Of a stretch of DNA of 56,713 bases, positions 34,560-40,396 are shown in pieces; the first letter of the stretch is position 1, and the number at the start of each line of letters is the position of its first letter. The DNA is from Nitrospirota bacterium (GTDB lineage: Bacteria; Nitrospirota; Thermodesulfovibrionia; Thermodesulfovibrionales; JdFR-85): assembly GCA_035873375.1 (NCBI GenBank), contig JAYWMQ010000038.1, forward strand, positions 1 through 56,713, read 5' to 3'. The translations under genes were made by a program, and so were the position numbers. Below the pieces are notes generated by a model that saw nothing but the letters and a program-made list of their open reading frames with translations, did not search any database and had not been told where the DNA came from.

Positions 34560-35843
34560 TTACTTCCTCTTCAGGGCCTTCTCAACTGTCCTGATAGCGC
34601 AGAACTCACCGCACATGCTGCAGACCTCTGTTTCTGAAGGCGGGACCTCAGAGCGGTAACGCCTTACCTTTTCGGGATCAAGACTCAGCTCTATCTGACC
34701 GTTCCAGTCAAGGGCCTTTCTCCGGCGTGCCATTTCCCTGTTCCGCTCTATTGCCCCCGGTATACCCTTGGCAATATCTGCTGCATGGGCTGCAATTTTT
34801 GATGCTATTACGCCTTCTCTTACATCATCAATAGATGGCAGCCTGATATGTTCGGCAGGGGTGACATAGCAGAGGAAATCTGCCCCGGCTGATGCCGCAA
34901 TTGCGCCACCAATGGCGGCAGTTATATGGTCATAACCCATGGCAATATCCGTTACGAGCGGACCGAGGACATAAAAAGGCGCCCCATTGCACAGTTCTTT
35001 TTCCATCCTTATATTAAGCTCAACCTGATTCAGTGGAACATGACCGGGCCCTTCAATCATACTCTGAACTCCGGCGTCCTGTGCCCTCTGGTGCAACTCT
35101 CCAAGTATGATAAGCTCCTGGACCTGTGCCCGGTCTGTGGCATCTGCAATGCAACCAGGCCTCATCCCATCACCAAGACTGAGAGTCATGTCATATTTTT
35201 TTGCAATATCGAGCAGCCTGTCATAATACTCATAGAGCGGGTTTTCCCTCTTGTTGTAAATCATCCATTCAATCAAAAAAGCACCACCGCGGCTTACTAC
35301 ATCAAGTATCCGGCCCTCGTTGCGCAGGTGTTTTACAGTATCAAGAGTAAGCCCTGAATGGACGGTGATGAAATCAACCCCCTCTTTGCCATGGTCTTCA
35401 ATAACATTGAACAGGTCCTCCACGGTCATCTTTGCCATTGAGCCATAGACCTCTACTGTCCTTACAATCGCCTCATAAATAGGAACAGTTCCAATGGGTA
35501 CAGGAGATTTTCTGAGCATCAAGCTCCTCATGTCCTTTATCGGTCCTCCTGTGGAAAGGTCCATAACTGCATCTGCACCGTAAGTGACGAGGGTGTCCAG
35601 CTTTTCCATCTCCTCTTCAAAAGAGATGCGGTCTTTTGATGTGCCGATATTTGCATTGATCTTTGTCTTGAGCCCTTTGCCTACTGCAACCGGTTCAATC
35701 TGGTGAATATTATTGCGAAGGATTACAGTAACACCCTCTGCAATGTCCCTGCTCAATATTTCAGGGGAGATGCTTTCCAGCTCAGCGCATCTCCTTACCT
35801 CCTCTGTTATTTCTCCGCTTTTTGCTGATTCTATTCTTGTCAT
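34560..35843 (-). CDS. thiC: Phosphomethylpyrimidine synthase, short form
   Basis: A 427-residue radical SAM enzyme that converts AIR to HMP-phosphate in thiamine synthesis. INANIGTS, the GADAVMDLSTGG, TVPIYEA, DFITVHSGLT, SRGGAFLIEWM and IEGPGHVPLNQ segments are ThiC signatures. The C-terminal cluster motif is Cys408-X2-Cys411-X3-Cys415, one residue shorter than the common CX2CX4C. The protein lacks the N-terminal extension of E. coli-type ThiC (about 600 residues). It is the last gene of the TPP-regulated thiS-thiG-thiC operon. Confidence 0.95.
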   Translation of the reverse strand: MTRIESAKSGEITEEVRRCAELESISPEILSRDIAEGVTVILRNNIHQIEPVAVGKGLKTKINANIGTSKDRISFEEEMEKLDTLVTYGADAVMDLSTGGPIKDMRSLMLRKSPVPIGTVPIYEAIVRTVEVYGSMAKMTVEDLFNVIEDHGKEGVDFITVHSGLTLDTVKHLRNEGRILDVVSRGGAFLIEWMIYNKRENPLYEYYDRLLDIAKKYDMTLSLGDGMRPGCIADATDRAQVQELIILGELHQRAQDAGVQSMIEGPGHVPLNQVELNIRMEKELCNGAPFYVLGPLVTDIAMGYDHITAAIGGAIAASAGADFLCYVTPAEHIRLPSIDDVREGVIASKIAAHAADIAKGIPGAIERNREMARRRKALDWNGQIELSLDPEKVRRYRSEVPPSETEVCSMCGEFCAIRTVEKALKRK

Positions 35844-35870: not shown

Positions 35871-36644
35871 TTACAGGAGCATTCCTTCAAGGGGACTGCT
35901 TGCAGTTGCATAAAGTTTTTTCGGAATTCTGCCTGCCTTATAGGCAAGTCTTCCTGCAATAACGGCATGTTTCATTGCCCTGGCCATTGCAACAGGGTCT
36001 TTGGCCCCGGCAATTCCTGTATTTATAAGAGCCGCATTACAGCCAAGCTCCATTGCAATTGTCGAGTCGGAAGCTGTTCCAACACCGGCATCAACAATTA
36101 CAGGGGTATCAACGGTTTCGAGAATTATCTTTATATTGTATGGATTTCTTATACCGAGGCCGGAACCGATAGGCGCACCAAGGGGCATTACCGCAGCAGC
36201 TCCTGCATCGACGAGTCTCTTTGCAATGATCGGATCATCATTGGTGTAAGGGAAGACAATAAAGCCCTCTTTGGCAAGAATCTCGGTTGCCTTGAGGAGT
36301 CCGCAAACATCCGGAAAAAGTGTTTTTTCATCACCTATAACCTCAAGCTTGACCATGTCAGAGACCCCGGCCTCCCTTGCAAGACGCGAGTATCGCAGGG
36401 CATCCTCAACAGTGTAACAGCCTGCAGTATTGGGGAGAATTTTGTACCTCTTCGGGTCTATGTAGTCAAGTAGATTGGGTGATTTCCTGTCCAGAATATT
36501 TATTCTTCTGACTGCAACTGTGACAACGTCTGTGCCGGATTCTTCAACTGCCTTTGCTGTTTCCTCGAAATCCCTGTATTTGCCTGTTCCAACCCACAGC
36601 CTTGACTTAAACTCTACTCCCCGTATAATAAACCTGTCTTCCAT
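35871..36644 (-). CDS. thiG: Thiazole synthase
   Basis: A 257-residue TIM-barrel enzyme that builds the thiazole ring from DXP, dehydroglycine and ThiS thiocarboxylate. [74 protein letters not shown] are near-invariant. Its ATG lies 3 bp after a GGAGGAGGA ribosome site that is itself the Gly-coding end of thiS. The two genes overlap by 38 bp. A glycine- or tyrosine-derived dehydroglycine source (ThiO/ThiH) is not in the window. Confidence 0.95.
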
Positions 36645-36930: not shown

Positions 36931-36971
36931 AAAAAAACAAAAAAGCCGTATCCCTGGATGGAATACGGCTT
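36931..36971 (-). terminator. Attenuator terminator of the TPP riboswitch
   Basis: On the minus strand a 9-bp stem (36963-36971 with 36943-36951) is followed by a long U tract (36931-36942). An alternative 8-bp hairpin, 36970-36977 with 36956-36963, shares the left arm and would prevent it. The pair is the expression platform of the riboswitch, upstream of thiS. Confidence 0.9.
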
Positions 36972-36979
36972 CCATCCCT

Positions 36980-37070
36980 TTCCCTACGCCGGTATAACCC
37001 GGATCAGGTTCCATGGGTCCCCCGCACTGAATTTTTGCGGGGCTCTCAGGCTCATGCCTCCCCCAGGGAC
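36980..37070 (-). promoter_or_regulatory. TPP riboswitch (THI element)
   Basis: The minus strand carries the conserved parts of the TPP aptamer: CUGAGA (37049-37044), the ACCUGAUC segment (37009-37002), UAUACCGGCGUAGGGAA at the 3' side and a P1 stem formed by UCCCU with AGGGA (36981-36985). It lies about 135 bp upstream of the thiS ATG and precedes a terminator, so high thiamine pyrophosphate should stop transcription of thiSGC. Confidence 0.95.
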
Positions 37071-37106
37071 ATCAGAAACTTATGTTCAGGTTGTTATTAT
37101 GAATAA

Positions 37107-38347: not shown

Positions 38348-38392
38348 ACGGCAGGGCATCCCAAGGTTATACGTGTAGGGATGCCCTGCCGT
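38348..38392. terminator. 15-bp stem terminator between the selenoprotein and hemW
   Basis: A perfect 15-bp stem pairs 38348-38362 with 38378-38392 around a 15-nt loop, and a T-run follows on the plus strand. On the minus strand it comes 27 bp after the selenoprotein stop, preceded by an A tract, and could end that transcript. Confidence 0.7.
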
Positions 38393-38418: not shown

Positions 38419-39177
38419 TTATTTGCCTTCTATAAGCTTGATCAAGTCTTCAGCTTTTTGGTTGCCACTCAGCAGCCTGCCGTCAGGAAGGATGATGGCA
38501 GGTGTTCCCCTTATACCGAGTTTTTTAGCAAGCTCTATATTCTTGTCAATAGCATCTGTTGTGCACGTGGGTGCAGGAATGGTCTTCTTTTCATAGGCAT
38601 CTTCAAGTAGCTTGATCGATTTCTCGCACACTATGCTCTTTGACTTGTTATAAGCATCAGGATGAATGCTTGTCAGTGGATACATTTTCAGATAAAAGGC
38701 TATGTCGGTTCTTTCTTTTACGATTTTCTTCATCTCCTGATGAAGTTTTGCACAGTAAGGTCAGTCGGGGTCATCAAAGACTATAACTTTATACTTTGCA
38801 TCTGCTTTACCCAATAGCAAGGCATCATCGAGAGGTATCTGAGAAGTATCAATCCTGTTCATATCAGTCATTCTCTGCTGTGTCAGGTTGACCTTTGTCT
38901 TTACATCAACAATTGACCCCAGTACCAGATTTTTCCTTGAGGAGTCCATGTAAACAAGGACCTTTTTGTCTCCGACGTTGAGGCTGACTTCACAAAGTCC
39001 TTCAACTGGTGATTGTTGAACACCAACCACTTTTGCTTTCGGGTCAAAACCTTTCAGAACCTCGTAGGCCTCTTCTTTGGAGATATTACATTTGCCGGAT
39101 GCCGCAAGGGAGGGTGTGGTAACACTGATGAACATCAGAAGCATCAACGAGGACAACAGGATAAAAAATTTAGTCAT
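38419..39177 (-). CDS. DsbC/DsbG-like periplasmic disulfide isomerase with selenocysteine (UXXC)
   Basis: A 252-residue protein if the in-frame TGA at 38763-38761 is read as selenocysteine (residue 139). Residues 1-25 are a signal peptide ending SLA. The N-terminal part (about 30-125) looks like a DsbC dimerisation domain. The thioredoxin-type domain has the active site Sec139-Pro-Tyr-Cys142 after the usual VFDDPD, a second Cys pair at 184 and 205 spaced as in E. coli DsbC (141 and 163), and the cis-Pro loop Thr225-Pro226. A strong ribosome site (GGAGG) precedes the ATG at 39177 and a TATAAT box is at 39210-39205. Conventional gene finders would split it into 138- and about 104-residue pieces. 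A TGA-based pseudogene or sequence error is possible but much less likely. Confidence 0.88.
38728..38745 (-). promoter_or_regulatory. Bacterial SECIS-like hairpin
   Basis: On the minus strand CUUCAUC (38745-38739) pairs perfectly with GAUGAAG (38734-38728) around an AGGA tetraloop. The loop begins 22 nt after the UGA, within the 16-37 nt usual for bacterial SECIS elements, and carries G in the first two loop positions. It lies within the coding sequence of the DsbC-like gene, as expected. Confidence 0.8.
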
Positions 39178-39270
39178 ACAGACCTCCGTTCCAGATTTTT
39201 AATTATTATAGTAACACATTATGAAAAAAATATGAACATGTTGATATTGTAATTTCTAAGGCACTTTCTA

Positions 39271-39285: not shown

Positions 39286-39960
39286 ATGGTCACTGACATA
39301 CGAAAGATAGGATTATTTAAAGACCTTGAAGAAGAGGAGCTAAAGGAGATCGAGCCTTACCTGAGGCCGTCTTCGTTTTCAAGGAAAGAGGTCATTTTTG
39401 CAGAGGGTGACCCCCCGGACTATCTTTACTTTGTGATGAAGGGAAAGGTCAAGATAACCAAGTTGTCTCAGGACGGCAAGGAGATAATTATAGAGATTAT
39501 ATCGCCCTTTGATTTCTTTGGCGGTGTTGCCGTTATGAGGGGATTTCCCTATCCCGCAAATGCAGTGGCAATGGAGAAGACCGAACTTTTAAAGGTCTCA
39601 AGGAAGGACCTCCTGAGAATACTGGACAGATTTCCATCCCTGATGTATTGCATGACCATGAACCTTGGCGACAGGATGAGAGGAGCCCATGAAACCCTTA
39701 AAAATATTGCCCTTGAGCGTGTTGAGGCAAGGATAGTCTCGTTACTCCTGAAACTGGCTGAAAACCTGGGCAGAGAGACAGATGAAGGTATCCTTATCGA
39801 TATGCGGCTTTCCAGACAGGATATTGCTGATATGGTCGGCACAACAGTTGAGACTGCTATAAGGACAATGACCAGGTTCAGGAAAGCAGGGTTAATCAGG
39901 GAAGTGGATGGCAGGGTTTTAATAACAGACCCCAAGGGACTGAGCGCCTTAGGGTCTTAG
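39286..39960 (+). CDS. Crp/Fnr family transcriptional regulator
   Basis: A 224-residue regulator with an N-terminal cyclic-nucleotide-binding-type beta-barrel (about 10-130; EVIFAEGDPPDYLYFVMKGKVKI) and a C-terminal winged helix (about 150-220; SRQDIADMVGTTVETAIRTMTRFRKAGLI). There are no clustered N-terminal Cys residues, so it is not an Fe-S Fnr; it could be DNR-like or Crp-like. Without a ribosome site it is probably translated from a near-leaderless message. It is divergent from the selenoprotein gene and converges with the CcoN-like gene, either of which it may control. Confidence 0.88.
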   Translation: MVTDIRKIGLFKDLEEEELKEIEPYLRPSSFSRKEVIFAEGDPPDYLYFVMKGKVKITKLSQDGKEIIIEIISPFDFFGGVAVMRGFPYPANAVAMEKTELLKVSRKDLLRILDRFPSLMYCMTMNLGDRMRGAHETLKNIALERVEARIVSLLLKLAENLGRETDEGILIDMRLSRQDIADMVGTTVETAIRTMTRFRKAGLIREVDGRVLITDPKGLSALGS

Positions 39961-39985: not shown

Positions 39986-40396
39986 CTAACCCTTTTCCTT
40001 TGCAAGCAGTGTTGCAAGCATGTTGTAGAAGAACAGAAAGATTGAAAAAACCTCGATCAAACCGCTAAGGAGAGTGAGGGTCCTGTAAATGCCGGCATCT
40101 GAATAGTATGTTCCCAGCGTATAAGAGATTGCAAGGCCGATAAGTCCTATGTTTGCCAGCCAGAATTGCACCTCAGCCATTGCCTTGCTCTTTAAAAGCC
40201 TTCCCGAGAATCTTGGCAGAATATGGTATCCCACCCCATAGATCATCATGGATACCCAGCCAAGCAGCATGAAGTGGGAGTGAACAAACCTGAGGGTAAG
40301 GAAATCAGGGTTTACAATCATTAAAATGCCTAAAACGGATGCAACGGCAAGATATACCAGGCTCATGACTATAAAGTTTGTTACAAATCTGTCCAT
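39986..40396 (-). CDS. CcoN/NorB-like four-helix mini-protein
   Basis: A 136-residue membrane protein with four hydrophobic segments. VHSHFMLLGWVSMMIYGVGYHILPRFSGR is very like the haem-binding region of cbb3 oxidase subunit I and nitric-oxide reductase subunits, but only a third of a subunit is present. It keeps His residues in HSH and GYH. It has a strong ribosome site (AAGGAGG). Stand-alone small relatives of haem-copper oxidase subunits have no assigned function that I know. Proximity to a Crp/Fnr gene suggests a role in gas or redox response, which is inference. Confidence 0.65.
   Translation of the reverse strand: MDRFVTNFIVMSLVYLAVASVLGILMIVNPDFLTLRFVHSHFMLLGWVSMMIYGVGYHILPRFSGRLLKSKAMAEVQFWLANIGLIGLAISYTLGTYYSDAGIYRTLTLLSGLIEVFSIFLFFYNMLATLLAKEKG

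Follow-up and report, generated by a model that had tools for sequence, protein, structure and literature searches.

The interrupted gene and its product

The window, meaning the whole stretch of 56,713 nucleotides analysed here, carries on its minus strand a coding sequence at 38419-39177, which encodes 252 residues if TGA is read as selenocysteine (Sec) and terminates at TAA. The frame opens with an ATG, has 138 codons before the TGA and then 113 codons up to the TAA, and its extent is supported by the translation and by homologues that align end to end. An initial reading of the letters alone (the sequence-only reading) had described two minus-strand frames split by one TGA at the first Cys of a CXXC motif, and its coordinates, frame and TGA proved exact. 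The ORFs at 38761-39177 and 38419-38733 share one frame, and the sole in-frame TGA is codon 139 (38761-38763), in the context VFDDPD-U-PYC. Alignment of relatives places this codon, the proposed Sec139, at the attacking residue of U-P-Y-C. A putative ribosome-binding site, the Shine-Dalgarno-like GGAGG, was read upstream of the ATG at 39183-39187 on the same strand. Immediately downstream of the gene, an inverted repeat at 38348-38392 (minus strand; ACGGCAGGGCATCCC ... GGGATGCCCTGCCGT) possibly marks the end of the transcript between the Sec gene and a hemN/hemW-like gene; the one hairpin that a terminator scan picked out is shorter and on the plus strand.

Several other features lie nearby. 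A TPP riboswitch at 36963-37074 (minus strand, 67.8 bits) is located upstream of thiamine genes, namely thiG-like (35871-36644) and thiC-like (34560-35843). A stand-alone COX1-family protein of 136 residues, which looks like part of subunit I of a haem-copper oxidase, is encoded at 39986-40396 (minus strand) and adjoins a Crp/Fnr-type regulator at 39286-39960.

The predicted protein begins with a putative signal peptide that takes up roughly the first 26 residues (MTKFFILLSSLMLLMFISVTTPSLAA, 39100-39177), judged by eye from the hydrophobic N-terminus; the structure model has a helix at residues 2-17. A DsbC_N dimerisation-type domain follows at residues 42-100 (38878-39054; PF10411, E 9e-11), and a thioredoxin-fold catalytic domain spans residues 125-248 (38434-38805; PF13098, Thioredoxin_2, E 4.9e-21), both over the Pfam cut-off. 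PF13462 is matched as well. The AF2 model of the monomer has a pLDDT of 92.1 and matches DsbC and DsbG structures with an E of 5e-15 and Z of 17-19, and ScsC structures as well; VIA-align gives Z 18-19 for the catalytic domain against DsbC/ScsC-type domains. The earlier assignment of both halves to one DsbC/DsbG-like thioredoxin-fold protein is thus borne out by domains and fold. Residue 139 is invariantly U or C across the aligned relatives. The alignment further shows as invariant Cys142 (38752-38754), the second and resolving residue of UPYC, Cys184 (38626-38628), by position the first of a DsbC-type second cysteine pair, its partner Cys205 (38563-38565), and Pro226 (38500-38502) in the GTP cis-Pro loop. 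The extra cysteine pair and the cis-Pro loop had likewise been noted from the sequence.

The best solved-structure matches of the protein are the enterobacterial DsbC proteins of E. coli, Salmonella and Yersinia (phmmer against Yersinia DsbC: E 5e-19). They share the DsbC_N and thioredoxin domains, the CXXC motif, the second cysteine pair and the cis-Pro. They differ in that the window protein has Sec as the proposed attacking residue and UPYC instead of CGYC, at about 24-28% identity. The NCBIfam equivalog models for DsbC (NF008129; 89.4 bits, cut-off 215) and DsbG (55 bits, cut-off 124) match below their cut-offs. Therefore, the protein is filed as DsbC/DsbG-like and not as DsbC, and its exact enzymatic role may differ from that of E. 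coli DsbC.

The active-site codon and the hairpin behind it

Relatives were collected in a scan of GTDB representative genomes and in an independent survey of the phylum. Pooled as distinct sequences, they comprise 98 genes with TGA (54) or TGT/TGC (44) at the active-site codon; no other codon, and in particular neither TAA nor TAG, was found there among the 98. This is the pattern of Sec or Cys expected by the homologue comparison that the sequence-only reading had suggested. The GTDB scan gave 49 loci, almost exclusively from Nitrospirota, mostly with TGA and otherwise with TGT or TGC. The second survey covered 396 Nitrospirota genomes; among the 150 matches listed, 85 have one TGA and 65 have no stop. 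These matches are distributed over 104 genomes, 23 of which contain both kinds. In the survey loci that were fetched, the TGA was confirmed at the active site. Independent relatives with TGA at exactly codon 139 span 39-84% protein identity.

The TGA is one base away from TGC or TGT, and the draft genome of 63 contigs also holds an intact Cys paralogue; a nonsense mutation with a decaying downstream half, or a sequencing or assembly error, could in principle produce such a frame. Against this stand the same-codon TGA in dozens of independent genomes, a downstream half that is conserved like the upstream half, with C142, C184, C205 and P226 invariant, and a hairpin behind the TGA that is unchanged in TGA genes only. 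A read error, another concern that had been raised, is ruled out because the TGA recurs in independently sequenced members of the genus. Altogether, a pseudogene or an error is extremely improbable.

The paralogue lies at C3:30995-31675 of the source genome (locus L010, also given as L010/L012). It is 58% identical to the window protein and has the same domains, but differs in its TGC at the active site, in not having kept the hairpin, and in a CXXCH motif behind the signal peptide. On another contig (L038, 6001-7718), TGA (Sec) and TGT (Cys) forms of the DsbC-like family stand in tandem. A near relative (L070, 69-726) was recovered by tblastn in two pieces of differing frame upstream of the TGA, probably as the result of an assembly frameshift.

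Outside the Nitrospirota, relatives are present in 262 of the 277 genomes of the Desulfuromonadia, the class of the Geopsychrobacter locus. All 31 loci inspected there (L127-L157) have Cys at the active site, and most have CXXCH. Stops reported in Desulfuromonadia relatives were considered as TAA/TAG alternatives and rejected: the inspected active-site codons are TGT or TGC, so the reported stops lie elsewhere in the gene. In this sample, the Sec form is characteristic of the Nitrospirota.

Behind the TGA lies a hairpin (38728-38745, minus strand) with the sequence CTTCATC AGGA GATGAAG, identified by comparison and folding as the SECIS element. It has a 7-bp stem, which begins 15 nt 3' of the TGA, and its AGGA loop is at 38735-38738; the consensus of this 18-nt element is CTTCATC-NGGW-GATGAAG. 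All 54 Sec forms keep seven of seven stem pairs, with the wobble positions unchanged too, as well as the GG of the loop and an MFE of -7.5 kcal/mol or lower. Only three of the 54 deviate in the loop, outside the GG. The 44 Cys forms, by comparison, keep three to six pairs, and none has seven. A published bSECIS model demands a loop of 3-9 nt, a stem of 4-16 bp, a G within the first two nucleotides of the loop, and a UGA-to-loop distance of 16-37 nt with an MFE of -7.5 or lower (PMC13188914); the window hairpin agrees with that model on all four points. Compared with shuffles, the window hairpin on its own folds only moderately better (z -1.95), and the force of the case lies in the comparison among relatives, not in the fold of this one sequence.

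The same signal is visible in codon choice. Among 57 degenerate codon columns with a residue conserved to at least 90% in the Sec forms, six use a single codon in 100% of the Sec forms from the GTDB scan, namely K144, L145, H146, Q147, E148 and K150. The next most uniform column is the adjacent K151 (90%), and all others reach 83% or less. In the Cys forms, columns 144-148 and 150 vary synonymously. The chance that six random monomorphic columns among 57 would form such a run is about 1e-6, a value uncorrected for relatedness. The peptide KLHQEMKK overlaps one seed of the GTDB scan, so the conservation of its amino acids is partly selected; the choice of codons is free of this bias, and the phylum survey, which used no seed, confirms it in this stretch. 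The hairpin-encoded residues KLH..M also occur in enterobacterial DsbC in the phmmer alignment. The hairpin therefore overlays a stretch that the DsbC family uses anyway, and its special feature is the synonymous codon choice.

The source genome was searched for the hairpin with up to three mismatches. A match without mismatch was found in the DsbC-like gene only, and none of the other 18 hairpin-like sites has an extended frame through a TGA at the correct distance. The hairpin is thus not a general SECIS sequence of this genome. A stem that never varies offers no covariation to prove pairing, and the 18 nt might instead be kept as a regulatory site, an internal start or a small RNA. Such a role is very improbable, as within a single gene family the element is kept only with a TGA 15 nt upstream and is lost with TGT or TGC; it also fits the bSECIS constraints and occurs without mismatch once in the genome. 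By comparison of sequences, the nearly constant hairpin 3' of the TGA indicates a SECIS element and reading of the TGA as Sec.

Selenocysteine machinery and the use of TGA

The source genome (2.67 Mb, 63 contigs, 99% complete) encodes the machinery for Sec insertion, whose presence had been named as a check on the Sec proposal. Matches were obtained for selA (598 bits), selB (378 bits) and selD (330 bits), and a tRNA-Sec model search identified a tRNA-Sec with the anticodon TCA (UCA). The next two matches of that search were rejected as an ordinary tRNA-Cys and a tRNA-Ser. The selD gene (L022, at C2:65053-65967) is a further selenoprotein gene of this genome, with a TGA of its own in frame; the hairpin behind this TGA, GGTCCGGGTGACC, differs from that of the DsbC-like gene.

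The 396-genome survey lists 68 genomes with a TGA match, and selA was found in 66 of them. The two exceptions, G142 and G215 (99% and 96% complete), have the TGA form and gave no selA or selB over the cut-off. An assembly gap, or a lost pathway with stranded selenoprotein genes, is possible in these cases.

The frame is equally open if TGA is translated as Cys or Trp, and a suppressor tRNA or an altered code could insert one of these or another standard amino acid. TGA, however, terminates 15 of the 41 ORFs in the window that start with ATG and reach 200 aa or more, a mechanical list and not every gene. It is thus a normal stop, and a genome-wide reading of TGA as an amino acid is excluded. 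The Sec machinery in the genome, the specificity of the hairpin for TGA genes and the Cys of the non-TGA relatives, which makes up a classical Sec/Cys pair, also speak against insertion of a standard amino acid, which is hardly credible. The Sec proposal of the sequence-only reading gains from the recurrence of TGA at the same codon in relatives and from the complete hairpin in 54 of 54 TGA genes against none of 44 Cys genes. On these comparative grounds, insertion of Sec at codon 139 is judged to be very nearly certain.

According to the proposed mechanism, SelB with Sec-tRNA-Sec would bind the 7-bp hairpin with its GG loop behind the UGA, and as a result the UGA at codon 139 would be read as Sec and not as a stop. 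The protein would then be exported unfolded through the Sec translocon by its putative signal peptide, and is expected to dimerise through the DsbC_N domain. Sec139 would attack wrong or oxidised disulfides, and Cys142 would resolve the mixed selenenyl-sulfide. A CcdA-type membrane reductase may keep the enzyme reduced; one CcdA-like protein, the sole member of the DsbD_TM family found in the source genome, is the candidate.

Enzymatic role, relation to known selenoproteins and significance

A periplasmic DsbC/DsbG-like thiol:disulfide isomerase/reductase with Sec as its attacking residue is considered highly probable. Its isomerase/reductase function, taken separately and on the basis of domains and motifs, is likely; action as an isomerase in the periplasm was already part of the sequence-only reading. 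The Sec could also be real in a protein whose main role is another one, such as a periplasmic peroxidase, a disulfide reductase or an apocytochrome c reductase in cytochrome-rich cells. This would suit the CXXCH behind the signal peptide of most relatives, which include those in Desulfuromonadia, as well as the DsbC and DsbG scores below the equivalog cut-offs. In addition, neighbourhood comparison found no conserved operon partner of the DsbC-like gene, so that context names no substrate. The DsbC_N domain, the DsbC-type second cysteine pair and the cis-Pro loop favour DsbC-like chemistry, and a main role other than isomerase is regarded as rather unlikely.

The history of the family was examined in a tree of 69 proteins, which calls for no fewer than 11 changes between Sec and Cys and no fewer than six for the CXXCH motif. 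The Cys forms branch from within groups of Sec forms, and a repeated change from Sec to Cys is therefore likely, though the root is weakly supported. A Sec form from a locus with the title Syntrophaceae (L066) groups with the Nitrospirota proteins, which may reflect misbinning or transfer. CXXCH stands directly behind the signal peptide in 52 of the 69 proteins, both Sec and Cys members; carriers include the Cys paralogue L010 and most members of the range L031-L075, within the N-terminal 60 residues. In an exported protein, such a motif is usually a binding site for haem c. The motif is absent from all 11 rows of the window protein's own clade. The window protein and the two relatives nearest to it have a pair of cysteines instead, where the other proteins have CXXCH and Trp: Cys30 (39088-39090) aligns with the CXXCH region, and Cys62 (38992-38994) replaces a Trp of nearly all other relatives. 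A tentative and rather doubtful explanation is a family of haem-c-tethered disulfide isomerases, in most of which a haem covalently bound at CXXCH would exchange electrons with the active site. The window clade would have lost the haem site, with C30/C62 in its place in the window protein and its closest two relatives. If true, it would link periplasmic cytochromes to disulfide chemistry, in Sec or Cys members. The CXXCH of most relatives, the same-genome Cys paralogue and the hairpin with its invariant stem all go beyond what the sequence-only reading had contained.

Selenoproteins of related type are already catalogued, both as UxxC DsbG-like and as 'thiol:disulfide interchange' proteins (PMC1088965, PMC1794560, PMC13188914), so the Sec gene adds to a known kind, though with an exceptionally clear record of its SECIS. 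The DsbG-like selenoprotein, whose model is NF041057 (PF13462; PMC13188914), was reported from one or two sequences, none stated as Nitrospirota (PMC1088965, PMC1794560, PMC13188914). It shares with the window protein Sec in place of the first CXXC Cys, a DsbC/DsbG-type thioredoxin fold and a PF13462 match. The window protein has 16 matches at E up to 10, and NF041057 is absent from them; the list of the 25 families most often matched by 42 members of the DsbC-like family does not contain it either. Another catalogued entry, the Sec-containing 'thiol:disulfide interchange protein' (WP_011366075.1) of Geobacter and Syntrophus species (PMC1794560, PMC13188914), has the PF13098 domain and the UxxC motif in common with the window protein; unlike that family, the best Desulfuromonadia relatives inspected here have Cys at the site. 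A literature search found no paper that describes this family in Nitrospirota, or the CXXCH motif of its members. What is new here is a widespread Nitrospirota clade missed by the known model for DsbG-like selenoproteins.

We infer that the apparently stop-broken gene encodes an intact disulfide-shuffling enzyme, predicted to be periplasmic. Standard gene callers cut the gene in two or terminate it at the TGA, and none of the curated Sec-aware models gave the window protein a score over the model's cut-off. Hence, many genomes probably carry a wrong annotation of this conserved redox enzyme of the Nitrospirota, an environmentally important phylum. The family also offers an unusually clean natural experiment, as Sec and Cys have interchanged repeatedly and often occur together in one genome. 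Since the hairpin is kept or lost along with the codon, the family is useful for defining the SECIS positions required by SelB, and for studying what an exported disulfide enzyme gains from Sec.
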